A stretch of DNA of 64,000 nucleotides from the NCBI RefSeq assembly GCF_013307435.2, contig NZ_CP102845.1, forward strand, positions 868,001 through 932,000, in the 5' to 3' direction. Within the stretch, counting starts at the first letter, position 1; each line of letters starts with the position of its first letter. The notes below the pieces were generated by a model. The model was not told the DNA's origin. It made no database searches and saw only the letters and a program-made list of their open reading frames with translations. The position numbers and the translations under genes are program-made. The DNA comes from Microvirga terrae. GTDB taxonomy: Bacteria > Pseudomonadota > Alphaproteobacteria > Rhizobiales > Beijerinckiaceae. Positions 328-20,160 of this stretch are shown here, piece by piece.

Positions 328-1845
328 TTACATCGTTGCGCCGACCTGCCACGGGACGAACTCGAGATCGCCGTAGCCGAGATCCTCCGACTTCGTGTGC
401 TCCCCGGAGGCGACCCGGAGCAGGATCTCGAAGATTTCCTGGCCCTTCGTTTCCAGGGACACGCCGTCGAGAACATCGCCGCAATTGATGTCCATGTCGT
501 CGAGCATGCGACGGTAGATGTCGGAATTGGTGGCGAGCTTCAGGGACGGCACGGGCTTGCAGCCGAATGCCGAGCCGCGGCCGGTCGTGAAGGCGATCAG
601 GTTCGCGCCGCCGGCCACTTGGCCGGTCGCCGCAACAGGATCATAGCCGGGCGTATCCATGTAGACGAAGCCGTGGTCCTTCACGGGTTCGGCGTATTCG
701 TAGACAGCCCGAAGGGTCGAGCGTCCGCCCTTCGCGGCGGCGCCCAGGGATTTCTCAAGGATCGTCGTCAATCCGCCGGCCTTGTTGCCGGGTGAGGGAT
801 TGTTGTTCATCTCGCCGCCGTTGCGGGCCGTGTAATCCTCCCACCATCTGATCCGCGACACGAGCTTCTCGCCGATGTCCGGGGTGGCGGCCCGCCGGGT
901 CAGAAGATGCTCAGCACCGTAGATTTCAGGGGTTTCCGACAGGATCGACGTTCCGCCATGACGGACCAGCAGATCGGACGCGACACCCAGCGCCGGGTTG
1001 GCGGTGAGGGCTGAATAGCCGTCGGAACCGCCGCATTGAAGGGCCAGCACCAGTTCCGATGCGGGGCGCGTCTCCCGCTGAGCCCGAGCGACGATCGGGA
1101 GCATGTCCTTCACGGCCTCGACGATGGCCTGCACGGTGCGCCTCGTGCCGCCCGTCTCCTGAATGGTGAGGGTGCGGAAGGTTTCGCTTTCTGTAAGGCC
1201 GTATTCCTGCTTCATCCTGCCGATCTGAAACACCTCGCAGCCGAGACCGACCATGATGACGCCGGCGAAGTTGGGGTGGCTGGCATAACCCCATTGCGTA
1301 CGACGCAGGATGTCGAACCCTTCGCCGTAGGCGGCGTGGCCGCAACCCGTCCCGTGAACGATCGCAACGACGCCGTCGATGCCGGGATAGTCGCGAAGAA
1401 GACCTGAGCGCTCGACTTCGGCGGCTGCGAAGCGTGCGACGGACGCGGAGCAATTCACCGATGTCAGAATGCCGATATAGTTCCGCGTGCCCGTTCGACC
1501 GGACGCGCGGCGGTACCCCTGGAAGGTGGCGCGCAGTCCGGGCGCAAGCAGATCGTCTTCCCGGGCATCTGCGCTGAAGGCGTAGTCCCGCTCGAAGTCG
1601 TGCAGACCGACATTGTGCTCGTGCACCCATTCGCCGGGCGCGATGTGGGTCTTGGCGAAGCCGATGATCTGGCCGAACTTGCGGATCGGCTCGCCTTCCC
1701 GGATCGGCTGCGCGGCCATCTTGTGGCCGCGCAGGATACGTTCGCGGGCCGTCAGTCCAGCCGCGCTCGCGCCCTGGTTCACGAGGTCGATGGCGATGAC
1801 CACATTGTCATCGGGCGAGAGGCGGATGGTGCGGGGAGTGCTCAT
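328..1845 (-). CDS. UxaA-family altronate/galactarate-type dehydratase
   Basis: The 505-residue protein has the full-length architecture of altronate dehydratase (UxaA, about 495 aa) and galactarate dehydratase. An N-terminal SAF domain spans roughly residues 1-95 with a His-rich stretch (EWVHEHNVGLHDF). The UxaA/GarD catalytic region follows, with GRTGTRNYIGI, VHGTGCGH, GLGCEV and LQCGGSDGYS. Family members remove water from sugar acids such as D-altronate or D-galactarate to give 2-keto-3-deoxy acids, using a divalent metal. It is the last gene of a minus-strand operon 43 bp behind a TRAP transporter, so the substrate is probably the acid that transporter brings in. The exact sugar acid cannot be read from the sequence, so no symbol is assigned. 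Confidence 0.85.
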   Translation of the reverse strand: MSTPRTIRLSPDDNVVIAIDLVNQGASAAGLTARERILRGHKMAAQPIREGEPIRKFGQIIGFAKTHIAPGEWVHEHNVGLHDFERDYAFSADAREDDLLAPGLRATFQGYRRASGRTGTRNYIGILTSVNCSASVARFAAAEVERSGLLRDYPGIDGVVAIVHGTGCGHAAYGEGFDILRRTQWGYASHPNFAGVIMVGLGCEVFQIGRMKQEYGLTESETFRTLTIQETGGTRRTVQAIVEAVKDMLPIVARAQRETRPASELVLALQCGGSDGYSALTANPALGVASDLLVRHGGTSILSETPEIYGAEHLLTRRAATPDIGEKLVSRIRWWEDYTARNGGEMNNNPSPGNKAGGLTTILEKSLGAAAKGGRSTLRAVYEYAEPVKDHGFVYMDTPGYDPVAATGQVAGGANLIAFTTGRGSAFGCKPVPSLKLATNSDIYRRMLDDMDINCGDVLDGVSLETKGQEIFEILLRVASGEHTKSEDLGYGDLEFVPWQVGATM

Positions 1846-1888
1846 GAGTATCTCAATAATCGGTTAGGAATGTCTATCGAACGATCCA

Positions 1889-3295
1889 CTATCGTCCCAA
1901 ACCCATTTTCTGCGGGAGCCAAAGCGTCAGTTCCGGAATATAGGTGATCGCGATCAGCGCGAGCATCAAGGGGACGAGCCAGGGAAGGATCGCCACCGTG
2001 GTGCGCTCGACCGACAACCTGGAGACCCGCGCCAGAACGAAGAGCACCATGCCGAGAGGCGGATGGAGCAGGCCGATCATCAGATTGAGCGTCATGATAA
2101 GGCCGAAATGGATCGGGTCGATGCCAAGCTTGAGCACGATCGGCAGTAGGATCGGAACAAGGATCGTGATCGCCGCGATGGTGTCGATAAAGCAGCCGAC
2201 GAACAGGATGAGGATGTTGGCAAGCAGCAGGAACACCCACTTGTTCTGCGTGAAGCCCAGGATCGCATCCGAGAGGATCTGCGCCGCCTGGCTGACCGTC
2301 AGAAGCCATGCGAAGATCGACGCCGCCGTGACGATGAAGAGAACCGATGCTGTCGTTTCGATGGTGTCGAAGGTCGCTTTGGCCAGGCTCCTGAACGTCA
2401 TGGAGCGATAGCGGACGAGGCCCAAGAACAGCGACCAGATGACGGCAGCGACAGCCGCCTCCGTCGGGGTGAAAAGGCCGAGCGTCATGCCGCCGATCAG
2501 GATGACCGGCGCCATCAGGGCCATCACGGCCGAGAAGTCGAAATACCAGTCGAGGGCGAGCAGGACAGCGAGGGCGATCCCAATGGAGACGTTGGCGGAA
2601 AGTCCGGCCTGGATCATCAGCCAGACGGCGACCGGAAAGGCCAGAACGATGACGACCTCGATGGTGGCATTGCCCAGTTGAGCCCATGAGAAGGGAGTAT
2701 CTGCGCCCCATCCGTTCCGATAGGCGAAGTAGGCTACGGTCCCCATCATCAGCAGGGTCATCACGATGCCCGGAATGAGGCCTCCCAGGAAGAGGGCACC
2801 GATAGAGACATTGGCCATCATCCCGTAGATCACGAACGGCAAGGAAGGTGGGATGATCGGCCCGAGGGTCGCAGATGCCGCCGTGACGCCGACGGCGAAC
2901 TCCGTCGAATAGCCATGATCCTTCATGGCCTTGATCTCGATCGTGCCAAGGCCGGCCGCATCGGCGATGGCCGTCCCGGACATGCCCGAGAAGATCACCG
3001 ATCCGATGATGTTCACTTGTCCGAGGCCGCCCTTCATCCACCCGACGAGGGCAACCGCAAACGAGTAGATGCGGCCCGTGACGCCGGCGATGTTCATGAG
3101 GTTGCCGGCCAGAATGAAGAACGGAACGGCCAGAAGCGGAAAGCTCTCGACGCCGGCAATCATGCGTTGCGCAACAATGACGTCCGGCACCGTGCCGCTG
3201 GCGAGGATATAGAGCAGGGACGCGACGGCCATGGAGATGGCCACGGGCAGGCCGAGGACCATCAGAACGAGGAAAGAACCGATCAGGATGAGCAT
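1889..3295 (-). CDS. dctM: TRAP transporter large permease (DctM-type)
   Basis: The 468-residue protein is almost entirely hydrophobic, with about a dozen predicted membrane helices and family landmarks such as VPFFILAGNLMN, IFSGMSGTAIADAAG, IIPPSLPFVIYG and LFTPTEAAVAAV. It is the large sodium-coupled permease of a tripartite TRAP importer. The start chosen (MLILIGSF) has its ATG overlapping the stop of the small permease by one base (TAATG), which indicates translational coupling. An upstream in-frame extension reads arginine-rich nonsense and was rejected. Confidence 0.93.
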   Translation of the reverse strand: MLILIGSFLVLMVLGLPVAISMAVASLLYILASGTVPDVIVAQRMIAGVESFPLLAVPFFILAGNLMNIAGVTGRIYSFAVALVGWMKGGLGQVNIIGSVIFSGMSGTAIADAAGLGTIEIKAMKDHGYSTEFAVGVTAASATLGPIIPPSLPFVIYGMMANVSIGALFLGGLIPGIVMTLLMMGTVAYFAYRNGWGADTPFSWAQLGNATIEVVIVLAFPVAVWLMIQAGLSANVSIGIALAVLLALDWYFDFSAVMALMAPVILIGGMTLGLFTPTEAAVAAVIWSLFLGLVRYRSMTFRSLAKATFDTIETTASVLFIVTAASIFAWLLTVSQAAQILSDAILGFTQNKWVFLLLANILILFVGCFIDTIAAITILVPILLPIVLKLGIDPIHFGLIMTLNLMIGLLHPPLGMVLFVLARVSRLSVERTTVAILPWLVPLMLALIAITYIPELTLWLPQKMGLGR

Positions 3296-3879
3296 TATGT
3301 TTCCGCCACCAAGGGTGCATCGAATGCTTCGGGCCGCTCGAGCACGGAATAGCCACGGCGCCAGTTGGCGACAGCAACCTGAACGGAGCGGAAGAACATC
3401 AGGACGAACCCGATGAAGACAAAGGCGTAGCTGAGGTTTTTCGGGAGAGCGATGGTCGTCATCTGCTCGTCGCCGATGATGCTCATGAAGCGCCAGACCA
3501 GGAGGGCGCCATAAGCGAAGAAGGCGACGCGGATGACGTCGATCAGGGTTGCCAGCACGCGGGCGAGACCGGGTGATAGATAGCGATAGAGGAAGTCGAC
3601 CTGGATGTGGCGGCTCATGCGCACGCACATGGCCGACCCGATGAAGACGAGAGCGACCAGGAGATTGGTCGCGATCTCCTCCGTCCAGGCGAAGGAATCG
3701 TTCAGCACGTAGCGTGTGAAGAATTGAACGAAAACCGCGAGCGACATCGCCCAGAACAGGGCTAAAGACAGCCAGTCCTCGAAGGCATAGCCCGATAGAT
3801 CGACCGGTGCGTGCTCGCTCTCGTCGAAAGTCTGCGCCAGCTCCTCGGCGCTGACCTGGGTGTGAACCTCAGTCGTCAT
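3295..3879 (-). CDS. dctQ: TRAP transporter small permease (DctQ-type)
   Basis: The 194-residue protein has a hydrophilic N-terminus (about 35 residues) followed by four hydrophobic segments, the size and topology of DctQ small subunits. The F-x-RYVLNDSFAWTEEIA stretch after the first helix and the CVRMSRHIQVDF loop are typical of the family. It pairs with DctM in the inner membrane. Gene order is binding protein, small permease, large permease, dehydratase, and its stop overlaps the dctM start. Confidence 0.9.
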   Translation of the reverse strand: MTTEVHTQVSAEELAQTFDESEHAPVDLSGYAFEDWLSLALFWAMSLAVFVQFFTRYVLNDSFAWTEEIATNLLVALVFIGSAMCVRMSRHIQVDFLYRYLSPGLARVLATLIDVIRVAFFAYGALLVWRFMSIIGDEQMTTIALPKNLSYAFVFIGFVLMFFRSVQVAVANWRRGYSVLERPEAFDAPLVAET

Positions 3880-3956
3880 GTCTCAGTGAGCCTCGTTCCT
3901 GGAGGTCAGAAGTGATCCCTGCCGGGGCGGGCGGTGGGATCCTTGAACGGCGGAAA

Positions 3957-3981
3957 GGCGGGCCGCCGGAGACGGCCCGCC
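3957..3981 (-). terminator. Strong stem-loop between dctP and dctQ
   Basis: A perfect 9-bp inverted repeat (GGCGGGCCG / CGGCCCGCC, 7-nt loop) starts eight bases after the dctP stop and only a short T-run follows. In an intra-operon position it most likely acts as a partial terminator or 3'-end stabiliser that raises binding-protein expression over the permeases. Confidence 0.6.
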
Positions 3982-3988
3982 CGAAACC

Positions 3989-4984
3989 TCAAAGACCTTC
4001 CGACTTCAAGGCCTGGATCTTGTCGTAGTCGGCCTTGCGATAGCCCAAGGATTCCAGGGTGACGTTCTTCATCACGGCTTCCTTGAACTCGTCCTTGTTG
4101 ACCTCGGTGATCGTCAAACCCTTCTGCTTGAAAGTCTCGATCAGTTCCTTCTCCTTCGCCTGGATTTCCCCCGAGGCGCGGACGGCCGCTTCCTGGGCGA
4201 CTGTAGCGAAGATCTTCTTGTCCTCGTCCGAGAGCTTTGCCCAGAGCTGCTTGGAGACGATCGTCGCAAGATGATCGACGATATGGCCGGTCAGCACGAT
4301 GTTCTTCTGGACCTCGTAGAACTTCTTCGCCTCGATCGTCGTCAGCGGGTTCTCCTGCGCGTCGACCGTGCCGTTCTGAAGGGCCAGGTAGACCTCCGCG
4401 AAGGCGATGGGCGAAGTATTGGCGCCGCAGGAGCGCGGCATGGCCAAGTAGGCGGGGGCATCGGGCACGCGGATCTTGAGACCCTTCATTTCGGCACAGG
4501 TCTTGAAGGGCTTGTTCGTGGAACTGTGGCGCACGCCATAATAGGTGAGGGCCAGCATCTGGTGCCCTGTCTTTTCAGCGTAGCCGGCGCTGAGCTCCTT
4601 GAAGACGTCGCTCTTCGCGAAGGCGAGCAGGTGGGCGGAGTCGCGGAAGATGTAGGGATAATACCCAATGCCGATCGGCGGATAGCTGCGTGCGGCGAAG
4701 CTTGGACCGGAGATGATCATGTCGACCGTGCCGAGCGACAGGCCCTGATTGATGTCGCTCTCCTTGCCGAGCTGCGATGCTGGATAGACGTCGATCTGAT
4801 AGCGGTTGTTGGTGCGCTTCGCGATCTCCTGTGCCGCCCACACCGACTGGGTGTGGAAGGGCTCCGAGGTTTCGTAGACGTGAGCCCATTTCAGCTTCGT
4901 CTGGGCATTCGCCGGCAAGGTGGGAAGAATGGCGGCTGCGGCTGCGACGAGGCCGAACGCAAGGCGGCGGGTCAGAAATGGCAT
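3989..4984 (-). CDS. dctP: TRAP transporter solute-binding protein (DctP family)
   Basis: The 331-residue periplasmic protein begins with a clear signal peptide (MPFLTRRLAFGLVAAAAAI, cleavage near PANA-Q). The family body follows: KLKWAHVYETSEPFHTQ, the LKIRVPDAP segment with the conserved Arg that salt-bridges the ligand carboxylate, and FAEVYLALQNGTVDAQENP. The start at 4984 has a GGAG Shine-Dalgarno; an in-frame start 48 bases further out would put extra residues before the signal peptide and was not used. The Arg implies an organic acid ligand, consistent with the sugar-acid dehydratase in the operon. Confidence 0.92.
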   Translation of the reverse strand: MPFLTRRLAFGLVAAAAAILPTLPANAQTKLKWAHVYETSEPFHTQSVWAAQEIAKRTNNRYQIDVYPASQLGKESDINQGLSLGTVDMIISGPSFAARSYPPIGIGYYPYIFRDSAHLLAFAKSDVFKELSAGYAEKTGHQMLALTYYGVRHSSTNKPFKTCAEMKGLKIRVPDAPAYLAMPRSCGANTSPIAFAEVYLALQNGTVDAQENPLTTIEAKKFYEVQKNIVLTGHIVDHLATIVSKQLWAKLSDEDKKIFATVAQEAAVRASGEIQAKEKELIETFKQKGLTITEVNKDEFKEAVMKNVTLESLGYRKADYDKIQALKSEGL

Positions 4985-5091
4985 AGGCGTTTCTCCGAAT
5001 GCCGGCTCTGTGGCCGGTTGAAACATGATCACGAGCGGTGCCGCTCGTAGGAGCTATCCGACGAGACGGTGGCGTCCGCTCAACGGTTCGG

Positions 5092-5103
5092 CTAACATGT
5101 TAG
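5092..5103. promoter_or_regulatory. 12-bp palindromic operator candidate upstream of the gntR gene
   Basis: A perfect palindrome, CTAACATGTTAG, ends four bases before the ATG of the divergent GntR regulator and about 108 bp from the dctP start. FCD-type GntR proteins bind short palindromes of this kind, so it probably mediates autoregulation and control of the divergent TRAP operon. The same outer half-sites, CTAA-N4-TTAG, recur at 33853-33864. Confidence 0.55.
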
Positions 5104-5107
5104 GCAA

Positions 5108-5824
5108 ATGGACGCCGTGGACAAGAGAAAAAGTTATGTTTTCCTTGCTCCCCTCGAGCGAGGGAGCCGAGGCCATACGACGGATCTGGTGGAGCGCTCC
5201 TTGCGCTCGGCCATCGTGGCGCTCGACTTCGCCCCTGGCGAGTTCATCGACAAAGGTGCCGTCTGCAGCGCGCTCAGGGTGTCCCGGTTCCCGGTTTCGG
5301 AGGCGCTGACACGCCTGGCCGCGGAGGGGCTCGTCGAGATCCTGCCTCAGCGCGGGTCGAGAGCGGCGCGCATCCGTCTGGCGGAAATCAGGGAATCCAT
5401 GCTGATCCGTCAGGCTCTGGAAGGCATGGTGGCGGAGAATGCCGCACGGCATCTGTCCTGTCATGACATCGAGGCCCTGCGCGGCAACCTGGAGGCGCAG
5501 CAGGAGGCCGTCTTGAGGGGAGATCGTCCGGGCTTCCACGTGCTGGATCTCGAATTCCATACGATTCTCGTCGAAGGGCTCAAGCTGCCGCGGGTGGCCG
5601 CCGTGATCGACGCCTCCCGGGCGAACATCGATCGTGTGCGCCGTCTTCTCTCCTCGCCCCGCCGGCATATCGTGACCCTTGCCGAACATTGGGAAATTTT
5701 CCGGGCTCTCGAGGCCCACGATGCGCCGGCCGCGCGCCGGGCCATGGAGGCGCACCTGGAGGCCGTCGTTGAGGAGTTGGGCCGATTCTCCGTCGAGCAC
5801 GCGGAGGTGTTCGTGGAGGCTTGA
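5108..5824 (+). CDS. GntR-family regulator, FCD subfamily
   Basis: The 238-residue protein has an N-terminal winged helix (about residues 25-90; FAPGEFIDKGAVCSALRVSR, PVSEALTRLAAEGLVEILPQ) and a C-terminal all-helical FCD ligand domain (about 95-225). Candidate metal/ligand residues sit around LEFHTILVEG and AHLEAV. FCD regulators sense organic or sugar acids and usually repress the adjacent catabolic genes. It is divergent from the TRAP/UxaA operon with a palindrome in the shared intergenic region, so local control is the likely role. Confidence 0.88.
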   Translation: MDAVDKRKSYVFLAPLERGSRGHTTDLVERSLRSAIVALDFAPGEFIDKGAVCSALRVSRFPVSEALTRLAAEGLVEILPQRGSRAARIRLAEIRESMLIRQALEGMVAENAARHLSCHDIEALRGNLEAQQEAVLRGDRPGFHVLDLEFHTILVEGLKLPRVAAVIDASRANIDRVRRLLSSPRRHIVTLAEHWEIFRALEAHDAPAARRAMEAHLEAVVEELGRFSVEHAEVFVEA

Positions 5825-6102
5825 AACCGTCTCGCAGTCCAAGGTGCCGATCCGGTGCCTGCGACCTGCCGCGGACACGCAGCCGGTCCTGCTCCGGGCG
5901 CCACTTCACCGGCAACGCTCTGCGGTATATAAGGGGCAGATTGCTTGCTCGATGCCCGACGAAGGGGCCAGGACGATCGTTCCGCAACCCGAGGCCCGAT
6001 GGCCTTCCGTCCGCTGGTGGATGCCTGCGACCAGCGCCGCACCGCGTGCCGACTACAGGTTTGCGGCGACGCCGTCCGTTTTCGCCTCAAGGAGTGGAAG
6101 CC

Positions 6103-7023
6103 ATGAGCACAGCGGCTTATCCGCAAGCAGGACCGGATCGCTCGGCTGGTCCACCGCAGGTCGAGGCGTTCTTCGATCAACGGACCTGCAGCATCCAGTA
6201 TATCGTGGCCGATCCTGCAACGGGACGCTGCGCTCTCGTCGATCCCGTTCTCGACTATGACGAGAAGTCGGGATCGATCGCGACCGCGTCGGCCGATGCA
6301 CTGCTGGCTCACGTGAGCGAGAAGGGCCTCACCGTCGATTGGATCCTCGATACGCATCCCCATGCAGATCACATGTCGGCCGCGGGCTATCTCAAGGACA
6401 GGACAGGGGCAAGGACGGCCATCGGAGAGCGGATCGTCGACGTGCAGCGGCTCTGGAAGGAGATCTACAACCTGAAGGAGTTTGCGGCCGACGGCTCGCA
6501 ATGGGATCGCCTGCTCGCCGACGACGAGGTCTTTCAGATCGGAGACATGGATGCGCGAGTGATGTTCTCTCCAGGTCACACCCTCGCATCCATCACCTAT
6601 GTCGTCGGGGATGCCGCCTTCATCCACGATACGCTCTTCATGCCGGATTTCGGCACGGCCCGGTGCGACTTCCCCGGCGGGGATGCAAGAGCCTTATGGC
6701 ACACCATCCGGCGCATCCTGTCGCTGCCGGACGAGACCCGCCTGTTCTCGGGCCACGATTACAGCCCGGGAGGCCGGGACCCTGCCTGGGAAAGCACCGT
6801 CGCCAGCCAAAAGGCTTCCAACATCCACCTCGTCCGGGCTCGCACGGAGGACGCGTTCGTCGCCATGCGCCAGGCACGGGATGCCAAGCTGCCGATGCCG
6901 AAGCTGATCCTGCATGCCCTGCAGGTGAACATGGCAGGAGGACGGCTGCCGGCCCCCGAGAGCAATGGAATGCGCTATCTCAAGATTCCGCTCGATGGGC
7001 TTGCCGATGCCGTCTGGGAGTGA
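6103..7023 (+). CDS. ETHE1-like metallo-beta-lactamase fold protein (probable persulfide dioxygenase)
   Basis: The 306-residue protein carries the MBL signature T-H-P-H-A-D-H at residues 84-90, a third His in FSPGHTLAS, a bridging Asp in FIHDTLFMPDFGTARCDFPG and a final His in FSGHDY. The DFGTARCDFPGG segment is characteristic of the ETHE1/Blh branch, whose iron enzymes oxidise glutathione persulfide or sulfide-derived substrates. The ATG at 6103 is preceded by AAGGAG at good spacing; the longer frame from 5821 lacks protein character before it. It stands alone, with 279 bp of untranslated sequence upstream. Confidence 0.82.
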   Translation: MSTAAYPQAGPDRSAGPPQVEAFFDQRTCSIQYIVADPATGRCALVDPVLDYDEKSGSIATASADALLAHVSEKGLTVDWILDTHPHADHMSAAGYLKDRTGARTAIGERIVDVQRLWKEIYNLKEFAADGSQWDRLLADDEVFQIGDMDARVMFSPGHTLASITYVVGDAAFIHDTLFMPDFGTARCDFPGGDARALWHTIRRILSLPDETRLFSGHDYSPGGRDPAWESTVASQKASNIHLVRARTEDAFVAMRQARDAKLPMPKLILHALQVNMAGGRLPAPESNGMRYLKIPLDGLADAVWE

Positions 7024-13011: not shown

Positions 13012-14409
13012 ATGAAGGACATTTCCTGCAAGCTTCTGGTCATCGGGGCCGGACCCGGCGGCTATGTCTGCGCCATACGGGCCGGTCAACTGGGGATCGA
13101 CACGGTCATCGTCGACGCGGGCAAGCCCGGCGGAACCTGTCTGAATGTCGGGTGCATTCCCTCGAAGGCGCTCATCCATGCGGCGGAGGAGTACGACAGG
13201 ATCGTCCATCTTTCGAACGGTCGCAATTCCCTCGGGATCAGAGCGACGAAACCGGAACTCGATCTCGCTCAGACAATCGCCTGGAAGGACGGCATCGTCG
13301 GGCGGCTCAACAGCGGGGTATCGGGCCTTCTCAAGAAGGCGAAGGTGAAGATCGTTCAGGGACATGCACGCTTTCGCGACGGCAAGACGATCGAGGTCGA
13401 GACGGAAACGGGCCGGCAGATCGTCCGCGCCGAGACCGTCGTGATCGCAACGGGGTCTGCCCCCGTCGCATTGCCGAACCTGCCGTTCGGAGGAGCCGTG
13501 ATCTCCTCCACGGAGGCGTTGGCACTGACTTCGGTTCCGGAGCGCCTTGTCGTGGTCGGGGGCGGCTATATCGGCCTGGAGCTCGGCACCGCCTTCGCCA
13601 AGATGGGAGCGAAGGTCACCGTCGTCGAGGCTCAAGGCCGCATCCTGCCGCAATACGACGCCGAGTTGACGCGTCCCGTGTCCAAGAGGCTGCAGGCTCT
13701 CGGCATCGACGTGATGACCGGGGCCAAGGCCAAAGGCTTGGCCAAGGCCGGCAGCACCCTGCTGGTCGAGGCGGAGGACGGATCCGAGACGTCGCTTACC
13801 GCAGACAGGGTCCTCGTCACGGTCGGGCGACGGCCCGTGACGCAGGGCTGGGGACTGGACGAGCTCGTCCTCGACATGGACGGGCCCTTCATCCGCATCG
13901 ACGAGCGGTGCCGGACATCCATGCGCGGGATCTATGCCATCGGCGACGTGACCGGGGAGCCGATGCTGGCTCATCGCGCCATGGGGCAGGGCGAGATGGT
14001 GGCCGAGATCATCGCCGGTCATAAGCGCGTCTGGGACAAGCGCAGTATTCCTGCCGTGTGCTTCACCGACCCCGAGATCGTGACCGTCGGCCTGTCACCG
14101 GAAGACGCTCGTCGAACGGGGATCGAGATCACGATCGGTCAGTTTCCGTTCTCGGCCAATGGTCGGGCGATGACCAAGATGGGTGAGGATGGATTCGTGC
14201 GGGTCGTTGCTCGCCTGGACAATCATCTGGTCCTCGGCATACAGGCCGTCGGTCATGGCGTCTCCGAACTGGCGGCAGCTTTCGGCCTCGCGGTTGAAAT
14301 GGGCGCGCGCCTCGAAGACATCGCCGGCACGATCCATGCTCATCCGACCCAGGGCGAGGCGTTCCAGGAGGCGGCTCTCAAGGCGCTCGGACAGGAGCTT
14401 CACATCTGA
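13012..14409 (+). CDS. lpdV: Dihydrolipoyl dehydrogenase (E3)
   Basis: The 465-residue flavoprotein has an FAD-binding GAGPGGYVCAIRAGQLG near residues 12-28, the redox disulfide GGTCLNVGCIPSK (C43/C48), an NAD-binding GGGYIGLELG near 184 and the C-terminal catalytic HAHPTQGEAFQE. It reoxidises dihydrolipoyl E2 with NAD+. Its place in the bkd operon suggests the dedicated LpdV form. Its 3' end overlaps the convergent cyclase gene by 10 bp. Confidence 0.93.
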   Translation: MKDISCKLLVIGAGPGGYVCAIRAGQLGIDTVIVDAGKPGGTCLNVGCIPSKALIHAAEEYDRIVHLSNGRNSLGIRATKPELDLAQTIAWKDGIVGRLNSGVSGLLKKAKVKIVQGHARFRDGKTIEVETETGRQIVRAETVVIATGSAPVALPNLPFGGAVISSTEALALTSVPERLVVVGGGYIGLELGTAFAKMGAKVTVVEAQGRILPQYDAELTRPVSKRLQALGIDVMTGAKAKGLAKAGSTLLVEAEDGSETSLTADRVLVTVGRRPVTQGWGLDELVLDMDGPFIRIDERCRTSMRGIYAIGDVTGEPMLAHRAMGQGEMVAEIIAGHKRVWDKRSIPAVCFTDPEIVTVGLSPEDARRTGIEITIGQFPFSANGRAMTKMGEDGFVRVVARLDNHLVLGIQAVGHGVSELAAAFGLAVEMGARLEDIAGTIHAHPTQGEAFQEAALKALGQELHI

Positions 14410-15476
14410 TCCGGTCCCGCGCTTCCGCGCGACCGAGCGGGGACGACCCGGTAGGCTTCCAGAACGCCTTTCCCTTTGATCGGCACCGGGCCCAGGGGGG
14501 AGGCGTCGATCCGGGTCTTCACCTGTTCCCATGCGGCTGCGCTGACATTGATGCTGGCGCTCGTGCCGTAGGCCGCCAGGCGAGCCGCGACGTTGACCGT
14601 GTCGCCCCAGATGTCGAAGCTGAATTTCTGACGGCCCACGACGCCGGCCACCACGGGGCCGACATGGATGCCCACCCGCACGTCCCACGGAATCGGCAGA
14701 CGGGATGCTGACGCGATGGTCGAGGCCGCGCATGCGATGCTGGACATCACCGGGTCCGGGTTGGACAGGAGAAGGCCAGCGGTGGCGAGAAGGCCGTCGC
14801 CGACCGTCTTGATCTTCTCGAGGCCATGTTCCGCCGCATTGTCCTCAAAGGCAGTGGCGAAGACGTGAAGGTTGGCGACGATCTCCTCGGGAGCGAGGAG
14901 GTCGCAATAGGCCGTGAAGCCCACCACGTCCGCGAAGAGCACGACGACGTTCTCATGCCGGCGCGGCGTGACGCTCTGAACGCTTTCGAGTTCCTCCACC
15001 GCCTGCGCCGGAAGGATGGCATGGAGAAGCGCCTCGGCTCGGGACCGCTGCCGCTCGATCTCCTTGAGGTAGCTCAATTCCTGATCGTGCAGCCTCTTCT
15101 TCTCCAGGCAGGCGCCGACCCTGGCCCGCAGGAGCGCCGGATTGAAGGGCTTCGGCAGGTAATCCTCCGCTCCGAGCTCGATGCAGCGGACGACGCTCTC
15201 GAACTCGGACAGGGCCGAGATCATCAACACAGGGATATCGCGGGTCGCGGGATTGGATTTCAGGTGCTTGAGAACCTCGTATCCGTTCAACTCGGGCATC
15301 ATGATATCGAGGAGAATGAGGTCGAACCGCTCCTCAGCGACCCTGTCGAGGGCCTCGCGCCCGTTCTCGGCGGTGACCACGTCCGCCCAGCCTTCCCGCT
15401 GCAGGCGCCGCGTCAGTGTGTACCGGTTGTCCTCGTTGTCATCGACGACCAGGATACGAACGCCAGTATCGATCAT
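14400..15476 (-). CDS. Receiver domain-class III adenylate cyclase fusion
   Basis: The 358-residue protein joins a receiver domain (about 1-120; ILVVDDNEDNRYTL, phospho-Asp in LILLDIMMPELNGY, Lys in YLPKPFNP) to a class III cyclase domain (about 165-345) through a helical linker. Metal-binding residues appear in VVLFADVVGFTAYC and KTVGDGLLA. The Lys of EKIKTVGDG and Asp of FDIWGDTVN favour ATP over GTP, and NVAARL supplies the transition-state Asn/Arg. Cyclic AMP production is therefore expected to depend on phosphorelay. The ATG overlaps the upstream receiver gene by four bases; the longer frame (to 15926) is a shadow. Confidence 0.88.
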   Translation of the reverse strand: MIDTGVRILVVDDNEDNRYTLTRRLQREGWADVVTAENGREALDRVAEERFDLILLDIMMPELNGYEVLKHLKSNPATRDIPVLMISALSEFESVVRCIELGAEDYLPKPFNPALLRARVGACLEKKRLHDQELSYLKEIERQRSRAEALLHAILPAQAVEELESVQSVTPRRHENVVVLFADVVGFTAYCDLLAPEEIVANLHVFATAFEDNAAEHGLEKIKTVGDGLLATAGLLLSNPDPVMSSIACAASTIASASRLPIPWDVRVGIHVGPVVAGVVGRQKFSFDIWGDTVNVAARLAAYGTSASINVSAAAWEQVKTRIDASPLGPVPIKGKGVLEAYRVVPARSRGSAGPDQM

Positions 15477-15850
15477 GGTGCCGTCCGATCCTGCAGAAGG
15501 CTGTCGATCTTCGCCAGGAGCCTCTCGAATGCGATCGGCTTCGCGTCGTATTCGTCGCAGCCTGCCGCCAGGGCCCGTTCTCTGTCTCCTGGCATCGTAT
15601 GGGCGGAGAGTGCGATGATCGGAATTCGCCGGGTGTCGGGTGCTCCCTTCAACAGACGGGCGGCGCTCCAGCCGTCGAGGGACGGCAGGCCGAGATCCAT
15701 CAGGATGAGATCGGGCTTTTCCCGACGGGCCGTCTCGACACCCTGCTCGCCGTCGCGGGCAACGAGAACGTCGAAGCCATGCCGCTTCAGGCGCTGAGAC
15801 AGCATGTACACATTGTCCTCGTTGTCCTCGACATACAGAATCCGGATCAT
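15473..15850 (-). CDS. Single-domain response regulator
   Basis: This 125-residue protein is a stand-alone receiver: IRILYVEDNEDNVYMLSQRL with the acidic pair, the phospho-Asp in LILMDLGLPSLDGW and the conserved Lys in YDAKPIAFERLL. It resembles DivK/CheY-type shuttles that carry phosphate between partners. It overlaps the kinase stop and the cyclase start by ATGA at each end, so it is the middle link of the phosphorelay operon. An upstream in-frame ATG at 15889 lies within kinase coding sequence and was rejected. Confidence 0.88.
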   Translation of the reverse strand: MIRILYVEDNEDNVYMLSQRLKRHGFDVLVARDGEQGVETARREKPDLILMDLGLPSLDGWSAARLLKGAPDTRRIPIIALSAHTMPGDRERALAAGCDEYDAKPIAFERLLAKIDSLLQDRTAP

Positions 15851-18800
15851 GCTCGCTCCCGATGCCCGGCATGTCCAGGCCGCATGCAATCGGCGATGAC
15901 CTCCCGCAGGCTGGACAGCACCTCATCCTTTCCGCCGAGCCGCTTGCGCAGGATTTTACGGATGCCGCCGCTGAGGCGGCGGTGGTCGTCGTCGCTGAGA
16001 TCCGCGGCCGTCAGCACGATCAAGGGGAGATGGCGGGTTTTCTCGTCTCGGCGAATTTCGTCGACGAATTCGAACCCGTCCATCTCGGGCATCATCAGGT
16101 CGAGAAGGACGATATCCGGACCCACGACGGGAAGCCTTTCCAGGGCGACCCTTCCATTCTCCGCCTCGGCCGTTTCCCATCCATCCTCCCGGAGGATGCG
16201 CGTCAGCCAGCCGCGGGTCTGGGCATCGTCCTCGATGACCAGGACACGCGGGTTCGCATGCTCGGGACGGCATGACGCAAGCGCCTTCAGGAGGCACTCC
16301 CGGTTGACCGGCTTCGTCAGATAGGCTGCGGCGCCAAGCGCGTAACCGCGGTTCTCTTCATCCACGATGGTGACCATGATGACGGGGATGTCCCTCAACG
16401 CGACATCCCGCTTCAACTCCTGAAGAGTGCTCCAGCCATCGGGATCCGCCATCAGCACGTCGAGCGTGATGACCGAGGGTCGAAAGTCCCGGGCCAGTTC
16501 GATTCCCCGACGACCGCTTTCGGCCGTTACGACCTCGAAGCCCTCCCGCGTCAGGAGCTGCCTCAGGATGTCGCGCGACGTGTCCTCGTCGTCGATGACC
16601 AGCGCGCGCTGCCCGCGTCCGACCGGGCGGGTGCCGATCGGCAGACGCTTCATGTCGGACCGCAGGCTGCGCATGCCTGGGGGACTTCGTCCAGCCGGCA
16701 GGGTGACGCTGAAGGTGCTTCCGCTCCCCGGGGAGCTGCGAACGGTGATATCCCCGCCCATGATCCGGCAGAGCCGGCGACTAATGGCGAGGCCCAGCCC
16801 GGTTCCTCCGTACTTCCGGGTGATCGAGCTGTCGGCTTGCGTGAATTCCTGGAAGAGATTGGCGCATTGAGCCTCCGTCAGGCCGATTCCCGTGTCGTGA
16901 ACGGAAAGAACCACCTGGTCGCCGCCTGGACCGGTCTCGCGCCCGGCACGGAGAGTGACCGTTCCGCTCCTGGTGAACTTGCAGGCATTGCTCAGAAGAT
17001 TGAGAACGACCTGACGGATTCGAACGGGGTCGGCATGGATGCTGCCGAGGTCCGCCGCGAGTTCGGTGACGAGACGGTTCTCGTTCTTGGCCGCAAGGGT
17101 CTCGGCCGTTCGAGCCGCGTCCTCCAACAGGCAGCCGAGCTCGATCTCCTCCGTATGGAGCTCGAGCTTGCCGGACTCGATCTTGGCGAGATCGAGAATC
17201 TCGTTGATGAGAGCCAGAAGATGCGCCCCGGCGTGGTGAATCCGGTCCAGCGGCTCGATCATGGCCGTCTCGCCCGTCTCCACCGCATCTTCCTTCAGCA
17301 TCTCGGTGATCCCGATGATGGCGTTGAGCGGCGTTCTCAGCTCATGACTCATGTTGGTGAGGAACTGGCTCTTGGCCCGGGTCGCCGCCATGGCTTGGTC
17401 GCGGGCCAGTTCGAGCTGCGCCGCATGTCGCTTGACCTCGGTGACATCCGTATAGACGGCAACGGTTCCGCCGCCGGCGATCCTGCGCTCGCTGACCTGG
17501 ATCCAGCGGTCGCCCTCCCGGTGCTGCACTTCGGCCACGACCGGATTCCGGTGGCGGGCCAGTCGCTCGACCACCCAGGGGTCGATCCGTCCTCGCGCCT
17601 CCTTGATGAGCCCGAGCTCCGCGGCACGCCGGATCACCGTCTCGAACGATGTCCCGGGGGCCATGGGGACGTTCGTCGCGGGATAGAGAAGCTCCTGATA
17701 GCGGCTGTTGCACAGGACGAGGCGGTCATCGGCATCGTAGAGCGCAAAGCCCTCATTGATGCTCTCGATGGCGTCGATCAGACGCTGCCGGGCGTTGGCG
17801 ACCTCGCGCAGGTTCTTCTCCTCGACCTCGATCGCCGTGTCGCGGAAGACGGCGAGCGCCTTGGCCATCTGTCCGATCTCGTCGCCGCTGTCGCCCGGCA
17901 GGGGAGCCCGCAGGTTGCCGCCGGCGATCGCCAGCATGCTGTCGCTCAGATTGCGCAGGCGTGCGACGAGGTTGCGGTCGACATAGAGCCAGACGATGAG
18001 AAGCGAGCTGAGGAGGCTCAACGCGACCACGCCGCGCAGCACGTTGTTGCCGACGCGCTGCGCCGTCAGCGCCTCCCGGCTGGCCGCCTGGATATCCAGC
18101 CGGGCCGCGGTGACGAGACCGTCGACGGCCTGGGTGAGCTGGGACGACAGGCCGGCGTTTTCCTGCAGGAGGCGCTCGGCATCCTCGATCAGGCCGAGTT
18201 CGGTCCTTCGCGCGGACAGTAGGCTGTCCGGTCCCTCGACGAGCTTGGCGAAGTCGGCGATGCGCTGCTCGAAGCGCGCGCGAAGGCGGGGATCCGCCAG
18301 GTCGGTGGAGATCTGGCGCAGGGCTGAGAGCGAGCGGTTCAAGGGGAAGCCGAGAACCGCGATGTCGGCCGCGTTGTCCGTCAAGGAGGCCTTGAGCAGG
18401 CCATCGCCGATCGCGGCGAATTCGAGCTGCGCCTTCTGCATCAGCAGATCGTCGGCGATCTCCTGAATGACCACCGCGGGAGGCTGCGGGGCCCCTTGTG
18501 TCGGTTGTTCGCGCCGTGAGGCGGCGAACTTGGAATCCAGCACGACGAGAGCCGGAGCAACCAGACGCTGCGCTGCGACTGTGGCGTTGGAAAGACGCCG
18601 CAGGAGCGCGTCCTTGTGCGTCGAGACGACGATCCGGCCGGCGACGAGGCCGGCGAGTGCCGTGAGATTGCGACGGAGCCGCTCGACGGCTGGCTCCATG
18701 GTGGTCCCTGTCGCGGGGTCGACATCGCTCTTGATCTCGGCGAGCAGAGCCTCGAGACGGTCGACCTCGGCCGTGATCGAGGCCGAGATCTCCCGGTACT

Positions 18801-19035
18801 GCATCTGTGAGCGCGCGCTCAGCAGAGTGGGGGCCGCCGCGACGATCCGTTCGGCCTGTCGGGACAAATCGAGAGCCGTGATGGCCGAGGGCACGCGCTG
18901 CTCCGTGATGCGCTCGATCACGAAGGCCATTTGGCGGAAGGCGTAGGTGCCCGCCGCGGCCGCCAGTAGCGCGAAGGCGCTGATTCCGAGAAACGCAAGA
19001 AGGAGGCGCCAACGGACGCTCAGCCAGACGGGCAT
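15847..19035 (-). CDS. TorS-like hybrid sensor histidine kinase with two receiver domains
   Basis: The 1062-residue membrane kinase has a first helix (about 9-31) and a roughly 300-residue helical periplasmic sensor of TorS type. A second helix (about 340-360), HAMP and PAS (about 425-535; ESINEGFALYDADDRLVLCN) follow. HisKA has His564 in SHELRTPLN, and HATPase has NLLSNACKF, DTGIGL and GGTGLGLAIS. Two C-terminal receivers carry ITLDVLMADPDGW and IVLLDLMMPEMDG. There is no histidine phosphotransfer domain, so phosphate may pass directly to the two downstream response regulators. The gene lies 24 bp after a periplasmic binding-protein gene, an arrangement like TorT-TorS. Confidence 0.9.
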   Translation of the reverse strand: MPVWLSVRWRLLLAFLGISAFALLAAAAGTYAFRQMAFVIERITEQRVPSAITALDLSRQAERIVAAAPTLLSARSQMQYREISASITAEVDRLEALLAEIKSDVDPATGTTMEPAVERLRRNLTALAGLVAGRIVVSTHKDALLRRLSNATVAAQRLVAPALVVLDSKFAASRREQPTQGAPQPPAVVIQEIADDLLMQKAQLEFAAIGDGLLKASLTDNAADIAVLGFPLNRSLSALRQISTDLADPRLRARFEQRIADFAKLVEGPDSLLSARRTELGLIEDAERLLQENAGLSSQLTQAVDGLVTAARLDIQAASREALTAQRVGNNVLRGVVALSLLSSLLIVWLYVDRNLVARLRNLSDSMLAIAGGNLRAPLPGDSGDEIGQMAKALAVFRDTAIEVEEKNLREVANARQRLIDAIESINEGFALYDADDRLVLCNSRYQELLYPATNVPMAPGTSFETVIRRAAELGLIKEARGRIDPWVVERLARHRNPVVAEVQHREGDRWIQVSERRIAGGGTVAVYTDVTEVKRHAAQLELARDQAMAATRAKSQFLTNMSHELRTPLNAIIGITEMLKEDAVETGETAMIEPLDRIHHAGAHLLALINEILDLAKIESGKLELHTEEIELGCLLEDAARTAETLAAKNENRLVTELAADLGSIHADPVRIRQVVLNLLSNACKFTRSGTVTLRAGRETGPGGDQVVLSVHDTGIGLTEAQCANLFQEFTQADSSITRKYGGTGLGLAISRRLCRIMGGDITVRSSPGSGSTFSVTLPAGRSPPGMRSLRSDMKRLPIGTRPVGRGQRALVIDDEDTSRDILRQLLTREGFEVVTAESGRRGIELARDFRPSVITLDVLMADPDGWSTLQELKRDVALRDIPVIMVTIVDEENRGYALGAAAYLTKPVNRECLLKALASCRPEHANPRVLVIEDDAQTRGWLTRILREDGWETAEAENGRVALERLPVVGPDIVLLDLMMPEMDGFEFVDEIRRDEKTRHLPLIVLTAADLSDDDHRRLSGGIRKILRKRLGGKDEVLSSLREVIADCMRPGHAGHRERA

Positions 19036-19059
19036 GATGGTAAGGGCATCGCCCCTCCC

Positions 19060-20160
19060 TTACTCCAGGGGAACATACCGGTCGCTCCGCCAGATGAACC
19101 ATTCGAAACCGGGCTGCCGGACATCGCCTTTGTCGTCGAATCCGACCCGGCCGAGGATCGTATCGAACTCGTTGCCGCGCAGGGCATCGATGACGGTCTT
19201 GGTTTCCGTGGATGCTGCCCTCATGACCGCTTGGGCCCAGGCCTGCACGGCGCCGTAACTGTAGAGCGTGTAGCCTTCGGGTTCGAAGCCCTGTCGGCGG
19301 AAGCGCTCCACCACCGGTGCGGCCACGGGGCTGCGCCGCGGATCCCGGAAGGACGTGAAGAGGGTGCCCGTGCCGGCTTCTCCCGTGACCTGCACGAAGG
19401 CTTCGCTGGCGATCCCGTCCCCGGATACCAGTTGCAACCGATAGCCGTCCTCGCGTGCGCCTCGGATGAGCAATGCGGCTTCACGGTAGTAGCCGCCGAA
19501 ATAGGCGACCTCGATCCCGGCGGCCCGCAATTTCGCGATCAGCGGAGAGTAATCGTTCTGTCCGGGGACGAGGGTCTCGAATACCGTCTCCATGACGCCA
19601 TGCCTGTGGAGCTGGCGGCTCGTTTCTTCGGCGAGGCCCTTGCCGTAGACGGAATCGTCGTGGACGATGGCGATCTTGCCGCTTTTCCAGCGCGCGGCGA
19701 GGAAGTCGCCGGCGATTGCGCCCTGCTGATCGTCGCGCCCGCAAATCCGGAAGGTATTGGTTCTCCCCTCTTCGGTGAGGCGCGGATTGGTCGAGGCGGG
19801 GGTCATCTGGATGATGCCGGCCCGCGCATAGATCGCGGCGGCCGGGATGGATGCGCCCGAGCACTGATGTCCGACGACAAACGACACCTTGGCGGCAACA
19901 AGGCGCTGTGCGGCGGCGATCGCTTGCGCGCTGTCGCATGCATCATCAACGGAGATGAGCTTGATCTGCTGGCCGAGAAGGCCACCCGCGGCGTTGATGT
20001 CGGCGATCGCCATCTCGACGCCCTGCTGCTGCTGCTCCCCCTGATAGGCGTTGGGGCCCGTCAGTGCGCCCGCCATGCCAATCAGGATTTCTCCATGAGC
20101 TGCGGCAGCGCACAGGGTGCAAACGACGACGATGGAAAGACCCCGCAGCAGCCCTCTCAT
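19060..20160 (-). CDS. Leu/Ile/Val-type periplasmic binding protein, probable sensor partner of the kinase
   Basis: The 366-residue protein starts with a signal peptide (MRGLLRGLSIVVVCTLCAAA, cleavage near AAAHG-E). It has the type I periplasmic binding fold of LivK/UrtA proteins: EILIGMAGALTGPNAYQGEQ, GVEMAIADINAAGG, VVGHQCSGASIPAA and IAIVHDDSVYGKG. No permease or ATPase gene is nearby. Instead the operon continues into a hybrid kinase, so the protein probably presents a ligand to the kinase rather than feeding a transporter. The start at 20160 has GGAGGG upstream. The ligand is unknown; amino acids, urea/amide-like or aromatic compounds are typical of the family. Confidence 0.85.
   Translation of the reverse strand: MRGLLRGLSIVVVCTLCAAAAHGEILIGMAGALTGPNAYQGEQQQQGVEMAIADINAAGGLLGQQIKLISVDDACDSAQAIAAAQRLVAAKVSFVVGHQCSGASIPAAAIYARAGIIQMTPASTNPRLTEEGRTNTFRICGRDDQQGAIAGDFLAARWKSGKIAIVHDDSVYGKGLAEETSRQLHRHGVMETVFETLVPGQNDYSPLIAKLRAAGIEVAYFGGYYREAALLIRGAREDGYRLQLVSGDGIASEAFVQVTGEAGTGTLFTSFRDPRRSPVAAPVVERFRRQGFEPEGYTLYSYGAVQAWAQAVMRAASTETKTVIDALRGNEFDTILGRVGFDDKGDVRQPGFEWFIWRSDRYVPLE

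Follow-up and report, generated by a model that had tools for sequence, protein, structure and literature searches.

A solute-binding protein, a TorS-fold hybrid kinase and a receiver-cyclase in Microvirga terrae: a candidate route from a periplasmic ligand to cyclic AMP

Why should the gene for a periplasmic solute-binding protein (SBP) head an operon that lacks a transporter and ends in a nucleotide cyclase? The question is posed by four genes in a 64,000-nucleotide stretch of the Microvirga terrae genome (NZ_CP102845.1, positions 868,001 to 932,000; hereafter the window, whose numbering is used unless a locus is named), all of which lie on the minus strand and run from 20160 to 14400 in the order SBP, hybrid kinase, lone receiver and receiver-cyclase. 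The best explanation, to which a probability of roughly 0.7 is assigned, is that the operon is a nutrient-sensing cassette coupling a periplasmic binding protein for small amino acids to cyclic AMP (cAMP). Control of cAMP synthesis by a periplasmic ligand had already been proposed from the letters of the window (the sequence-only reading), and comparison with other genomes lends it support: it is the best reading because the sensor has the TorS fold, the SBP neighbor is nearly constant and the output is frequently an adenylyl cyclase. The features on which the argument depends are as follows.

19060..20160, minus strand: periplasmic SBP of the branched-chain amino acid (Liv) type, 366 amino acids, signal-like N-terminus (PF13458; likeness to 3ipc and 3ip5)
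15847..19035, minus strand: membrane hybrid histidine kinase, 1062 amino acids (Pfam domains)
18100..18894, minus strand: TorS-fold sensor region, kinase residues 48-312
15473..15850, minus strand: lone receiver, 125 amino acids (PF00072, 81.7 bits)
14400..15476, minus strand: receiver-cyclase, predicted adenylyl cyclase, 358 amino acids (PF00072, 105 bits; PF00211, 123 bits)
14445..14966, minus strand: class III cyclase catalytic domain (Pfam, residues and structural superposition)

In the mechanism proposed here, the SBP would serve as a dedicated co-receptor rather than as part of a transporter and would bind the TorS-fold sensor of a dimeric kinase, whose activity the loaded SBP would alter, as the fold, the adjacency and the TorT-TorS system suggest. 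The kinase would then phosphorylate the receiver of the receiver-cyclase, either directly or via its own receivers and an outside Hpt protein; phosphorylation may rearrange the receiver dimer, and a continuous helix seen in the structural model would set the cyclase dimer and so change the conversion of ATP to cAMP. The lone receiver may be an optional modulator or phosphate sink, and cAMP would work via CRP-like proteins.

The gene set and its inheritance

The start ATG of the SBP gene is preceded by GGAGGG, 24 bases separate this gene from that of the kinase, and each later junction, kinase to lone receiver and lone receiver to receiver-cyclase, is an ATGA in which stop and start overlap. 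Coordinates and Pfam domains confirm the gene content, order, strand and overlaps given in the sequence-only reading, and its statement that the SBP comes without transporter genes also holds: none lies inside the operon, no PF02653 permease match is closer than 27 kb, and the nearest (Liv-type) matches, at 27 kb, are accompanied by an SBP of their own. Neither promoter-like sites (0 against 0.9 expected) nor terminator-like sites (4 against 3.5) exceed the numbers in shuffled sequence.

Within a comparison set of 61 genomes (the M. terrae genome and 60 relatives, 37 of the total belonging to the genus), the receiver-cyclase (at least 81% identity), the sensor (at least 77%) and the SBP (at least 74%) occur together in the same 12 genomes, all of them Microvirga, and none of the three is found at those identities in the other 25 genomes of the genus; the three components have thus been inherited as a unit within Microvirga. 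All 25 genomes without the set still have Liv-type paralogs (best 45-49%), and three of them contain distant receiver-cyclases (G018, 55%; G007, 54%; G032, 50%; genomes and loci are cited by G and L numbers), accompanied in G007 by distant sensors (49% and 45%). Microvirga also accounts for each of the 13 nearest named loci, where receiver-cyclase identities are 81-96%. A lack of conservation of the gene order, named in the sequence-only reading as a refutation, did not show up, and the order is more than chance: among 78 receiver-cyclase loci, 11 keep all four genes in the operon order and four more keep SBP, kinase and receiver-cyclase with a mere remnant of the lone receiver, these 15 comprising 13 loci from Microvirga, one from Ruegeria (L021) and one from Phyllobacterium (L032). 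The set is also carried on plasmids of Rhizobium T136, R. sullae and Pararhizobium A13, the A13 kinase appearing as two open reading frames (ORFs).

The core of the operon, namely a two-receiver kinase, a lone receiver and a receiver-cyclase, also occurs with other inputs, lying, among further cases, beside a Tll0287-like protein (L022, L026, L033 and L109 on pSymB of Sinorhizobium meliloti) or an ABC_sub_bind protein (L051, L054 and L078, the receiver output of the last having no cyclase match); at L063 and L077, SpoIIE takes the place of the cyclase in the last gene. Such a variety of inputs and outputs (SpoIIE or cyclase) would suit a receiver-cyclase uncoupled from the kinase, the four genes being mere neighbors, as would 13 cyclase loci without a kinase or lone receiver directly upstream (some cut by contig ends; L055 and L056 with genes on the other strand), a count that rests on simple ORF rules and can miss genes, as at L031, which has a lone receiver. 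This arrangement is nevertheless very improbable in view of the contiguity of kinase, lone receiver and receiver-cyclase at 19 further cyclase loci without a match to the operon sensor, from Alphaproteobacteria to Deltaproteobacteria, the presence or absence of the unit as a whole within the genus, and the ATGA overlaps. As a side observation, L109 (2570-8038) encodes a Tll0287-like (DUF3365) protein, a kinase, a receiver and a HisKA-receiver-cyclase, a parallel cassette with a different partner.

The binding protein and the sensor beside it

The SBP belongs to the Leu/Ile/Val-type family by its match to PF13458 (Peripla_BP_6; 171.3 bits, cut-off 31.7), and it falls below the curated cut-off of PRK15404, the SBP of the branched-chain amino acid transporter (326.3 of 477 bits). 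Among solved structures it is closest to 3ipc and 3ip5 (E 4e-101 and 6e-101; 341 bits), followed by 4n0q and the leucine and Leu/Ile/Val binding proteins of E. coli; 3ipc and 3ip5 we take to be Atu2422 of Agrobacterium, a binder of gamma-aminobutyric acid (GABA), proline and alanine. The residues at 3ip5 positions 79, 102, 150 and 226 (S, T, Y and D), which presumably fix a bound amino acid at its ends, are identical in the operon SBP and 15 orthologs, and 14 of these 16 proteins have Gln where 3ip5 has Phe at position 77. A small amino acid or GABA-like compound would be the first guess for the ligand.

The kinase comprises, in Pfam order, a TorS-type sensor, HAMP, PAS_7, HisKA, HATPase_c and two REC domains, the sensor being flanked by two hydrophobic segments as judged by eye. 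The sensor matches the TorS profile PF21689 at 38.2 bits (cut-off 27), and its modeled fold is that of solved TorS sensor domains. The full-length kinase scores under the cut-offs for TIGR02956, the equivalog of the trimethylamine N-oxide sensor TorS (407.9 of 676.5 bits), and for the NCBIfam LuxQ model (260 of 1200 bits). The operon resembles TorT-TorS in its helical two-bundle sensor fold, binding protein and hybrid kinase, and departs from it in the type of its SBP (Liv, unlike TorT), in the domain order of its kinase (a PAS domain and two receivers without Hpt, where TorS carries a C-terminal Hpt domain) and in its output (a receiver-cyclase, where TorR is a DNA-binding regulator). An SBP likewise acts as co-receptor of a hybrid kinase in LuxP-LuxQ, although the LuxQ sensor has a double PDC fold, unlike the TorS fold of the operon (PMC8534201), and XylFII-LytS provides a further precedent beside these two for pairing an SBP with a kinase (PMC6321045).

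The pair of SBP and sensor is the most constant part of the system. Among 57 plasmid sensor records, 56 have an SBP directly upstream on the same strand, with 141-284 bases between match edges, and the remaining one (Bradyrhizobium CB82) has an adjoining, divergent SBP; these records are not independent, because 52 of the 57 are from Sinorhizobium. Two further draws of genomes, by class (385) and by order (397), both of which include the M. terrae genome, yield 11 sensor loci outside it (E <= 1e-25), one of which (L171) ends at a contig edge; all 10 testable loci, from eight genomes, adjoin an SBP gene. Six of these loci (L167, L169, L170, L177, L178 and L179) have a Liv-type SBP and the other four an SBP of a different Pfam family: DctP (L166 and, in divergent orientation, L180), SBP_bac_3 (L181) or NMT1 (L168). 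DctP genes adjoin the loci L063 and L077 as well, L063 being the same place as L166. SBP families overall fall into two clans (PMC9602780). Seven of the 11 drawn loci lead to a cyclase (L168-L171 and L177-L179). Two remote relatives outside the 11 show further pairings, G036 having an SBP_bac_6/SBP_bac_1 gene that overlaps the kinase gene together with an NtrC-type regulator, and G045 a divergent Peripla_BP_4 gene.

Gene content, modeled fold, conserved residues, inheritance as a unit, SBP neighbors and natural fusions of sensor and cyclase are observed; we infer the binding of SBP to sensor, the ligand, the phosphate route, the direction of control and the effect on cAMP. Several observations weigh against a co-receptor that governs cAMP. 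The PF21689 match spans just profile positions 1-108 of 275, and a kinase of G067 related to that of the operon bears an Hpt domain. Sensor receptors of this kind are rare, occurring in four of 385 and six of 397 genomes of the class and order draws, the M. terrae genome included. Four of the 11 drawn loci (L166, L167, L180 and L181) have no cyclase route: the output is a SpoIIE phosphatase at L166 and a receiver protein of no clear output class at L181, a NarL-type regulator gene stands convergent beside the kinase at L180, and L167 (3984-10984) pairs an SBP with a TorS-sensor kinase without receivers, two TPR-cyclase genes lying divergent next door. SBP adjacency was set against the genome-wide base rate (about 20 Peripla_BP_6 genes, from 21 matches, in 6.1 Mb) rather than against unrelated kinases. 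In Pseudomonas aeruginosa, the SBPs adjoining AgtS and AruS failed to bind the sensor domains of these kinases (PMC11113362); those domains are of other types than the operon sensor. Finally, some of the 40 PF02653 permease matches in the genome could accept the operon SBP, and four other chromosomal SBP genes of the family are likewise without a near permease.

The last points suit a different account, in which the SBP works in uptake with a Liv-type permease that is shared and lies at another site, the kinase senses something else directly with its helical domain, and adjacency reflects co-regulation only. SBPs can share permeases, five of the 19 chromosomal SBP genes of the family (that of the operon included) have no permease match within 5.2 kb, and the AgtS and AruS results are negative precedents. 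This account is judged unlikely, given that the other 14 genes do have a permease match within that distance, that the sensor retains an SBP neighbor even as the SBP family changes, and that a sensor known to bind an SBP has the same fold.

A separate observation concerns the second contig of the same genome, where another 3ip5-like SBP gene is followed, 388 bases downstream and on the same strand, by a gene for a 465-residue cyclase (L182, 2726-5747). By eye, the N-terminal segments of this cyclase are hydrophobic, and the contig has no PF02653 permease match. The pair is not counted as a further case, given the width of the gap and the lack of a visible periplasmic sensor domain.

From kinase to cyclase

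The acid pair, phospho-acceptor Asp, Ser/Thr and Lys are kept by all four receivers of the operon, the Lys of the second kinase receiver lacking the usual following Pro, and the phosphorylation residues recur in nearly all aligned homologs among the rows caught by domain labels, the acceptor Asp in every one (34/34, 34/34, 43/43 and 56/56). The claim in the sequence-only reading that no Hpt domain is encoded locally stands, none being matched in the four proteins, kinase C-terminus included (Pfam, E 0.1). The idea of the lone receiver as a needed competitor is not supported: its gene has decayed in four of the 13 Microvirga loci (L012, L014, L018 and L019), where scraps of it are visible by eye in the 55-121 bases between the kinase and receiver-cyclase genes. 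Because both of these genes persist there, the lone receiver is not an obligatory step.

The cyclase domain retains two metal Asp, the Lys and Asp of the ATP type, an Asn and an Arg, residues to which we ascribe metal binding, ATP selection and catalysis, and the protein is predicted to be a class III adenylyl cyclase that makes cAMP. Among 56 homologous rows, the six residues are kept as D 56, K 44, D 53, D 44, N 53 and R 56, the ATP-type Lys and Asp thus in 44 rows each. An AlphaFold2 model of the receiver-cyclase (31 sequences, pLDDT 89.8) contains a single helix of 42 residues (112-153) that links the last receiver helix to the cyclase, and 211 residues of its cyclase part can be superposed at 2.1 Å on 5o5k, a bacterial cyclase; 5o5k and its kin are also the closest among solved structures. 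On this model, receiver dimer geometry would control the cyclase.

How phosphate might reach this receiver is less clear. Direct transfer from the kinase is uncertain because the related G067 kinase carries an Hpt domain, and a full His-Asp-His-Asp relay, with the kinase receivers and an Hpt protein encoded elsewhere as intermediates before the receiver-cyclase, would be a variant that overlaps the best explanation. Both kinase receivers retain their phosphorylation residues, and the M. terrae genome has four Hpt matches. Moreover, HisKA-like segments with an H-box are fused before the receiver-cyclase in sister cassettes (L109 on pSymB, L048, L057, L059 and L101-L103) and are possibly built-in phosphotransferases; the L109 segment, the only one scanned, matches Pfam HisKA at 46 bits and has no ATPase domain. 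All four genomic Hpt matches, however, lie in open frames of 763-936 codons and none in a small one, in a search confined to the Hpt family, to which ChpT-type proteins do not belong; among 18 further kinases of such loci, scanned without their neighboring genes, only that of L171 has an Hpt domain; and the operon receiver-cyclase has no HisKA match in Pfam. The full relay is therefore a tentative option, on the doubtful side. At L171 itself (420-6422), the hybrid kinase combines a related sensor with an Hpt domain, and the genes for two lone receivers and for a receiver-cyclase come after it.

Other routes from this receptor to cyclases

Relatives link the same kind of receptor to cyclases by more than one route. 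On pSymA of S. meliloti, a gene annotated as a branched-chain amino acid SBP precedes that for an 819-residue sensor-HAMP-PAS-cyclase protein, a fusion with a cyclase where the kinase would be, and such fusions also stand beside an SBP gene in NGR234, G801, G697, G645, G067 and G007. The pairs on pSymA and pNGR234b share with the operon a homologous SBP (about 55%), the sensor (about 43-45%) and a cyclase output, and differ from it in the absence of kinase and receivers and in a cyclase of another lineage; no description of the Sinorhizobium pair was found in the portions of the literature that were searched. The best 120 of 1096 sensor proteins comprise 91 hybrid kinases, 15 receiver-less kinases (some possibly truncated frames, so the contrast is not used), 12 cyclase fusions, one other and one artefact. 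P0068, an apparent fusion of SBP and sensor that would have been direct proof of coupling, has an out-of-frame stretch between its parts by eye, was attributed to sequencing or assembly and was not used.

Quick trees, which include some metagenomic rows, suggest how this variety may have arisen. In a cyclase tree of 71 rows, from which 10 near-copies had been removed beforehand, 15 fusion cyclases form one clade (95, starred) separate from the 36-row clade that holds the operon cyclase (98, starred); the two fusion cyclases checked are closest to P. aeruginosa CyaB. The cassette cyclases are not a single lineage, since the operon clade leaves out 12 of the 48 cassette receiver-cyclases, eight of which are placed as sister to the fusions (96, starred, on a long branch). 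A tree of 140 sensors calls for at least 11 changes between kinase and cyclase labels, six of them forced by starred branches, and a single clade of cyclase-attached sensors, a group picked after the first tree was seen, is rejected (p-AU 1e-44; 70 of 140 rows kept); a single clade of the PAS parts of cyclase-attached proteins is compatible with the data (p 0.157; 60 rows). The simplest account has sensor modules moving between kinase and cyclase backbones, an exchange that is likely though not proven, and this receptor arriving at a cyclase output via at least two cyclase lineages. Three wirings coexist in G007. At L153, a sensor-PAS-cyclase fusion is accompanied by an SBP gene of the Liv type in divergent orientation. 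At L154 (37-3543), three tandem DctP genes of the tripartite ATP-independent periplasmic (TRAP) type diverge from the gene for a TorS-sensor kinase that is only distantly like the operon kinase in its kinase part (26 bits); a receiver comes next, then a receiver-cyclase that belongs to another cyclase lineage. At L155, a distant SBP of the Liv type is grouped with a TorS-sensor hybrid kinase, a receiver and, as in the operon, a receiver-cyclase of the same kind.

Taken with the literature, these arrangements point to a receptor output that has so far gone unlisted. A 2022 survey of receptors stimulated by SBPs lists chemoreceptors, sensor kinases, cyclic di-GMP enzymes and Ser/Thr kinases, and its accessible part does not name adenylyl cyclases (PMC9602780); neither a TorS-type adenylyl cyclase nor such an operon was found in the portions of the open-licence literature that were searched. 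On balance, it seems probable that adenylyl cyclases form a further output class driven by SBPs and that one TorS-fold module, whichever SBP family adjoins it (Liv, TRAP DctP, SBP_bac_3 or NMT1), has been connected to cAMP on several occasions, by the cassette of hybrid kinase and receiver-cyclase and by direct fusion to a cyclase of another lineage, with repeated exchange of sensors between kinase and cyclase backbones. Two-component input to a class III cyclase has parallels in receiver-controlled cyclases such as CyaC of Arthrospira, which combines kinase, receivers and cyclase in one protein with no SBP; solved CyaC matches the fusion protein P0042 at 112 bits and is not among the 60 best matches listed for the operon cyclase. 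CyaD1, CyaD2 and CyaK of S. meliloti, also rhizobial receptor cyclases, have CHASE2 sensors, and the accessible part of the source makes no mention of an SBP (PMC13001267).

Rhizobia and their kin carry dozens of cyclases, with 28 annotated in S. meliloti (PMC13001267) and 33 PF00211 matches in the M. terrae genome (6.13 Mb, four contigs), where the operon cyclase has the top score. The operon and the Sinorhizobium fusion together supply a likely ligand class, a co-receptor and two testable outputs, the natural fusion of sensor and cyclase being a control in which the kinase is removed from the pathway. For most rhizobial cyclases, we know of no signal.

At its far end, the receiver-cyclase gene overlaps, tail to tail and by 10 bases (14400-14409), a convergent frame on the plus strand (13012-14409), which by eye resembles dihydrolipoamide dehydrogenase.

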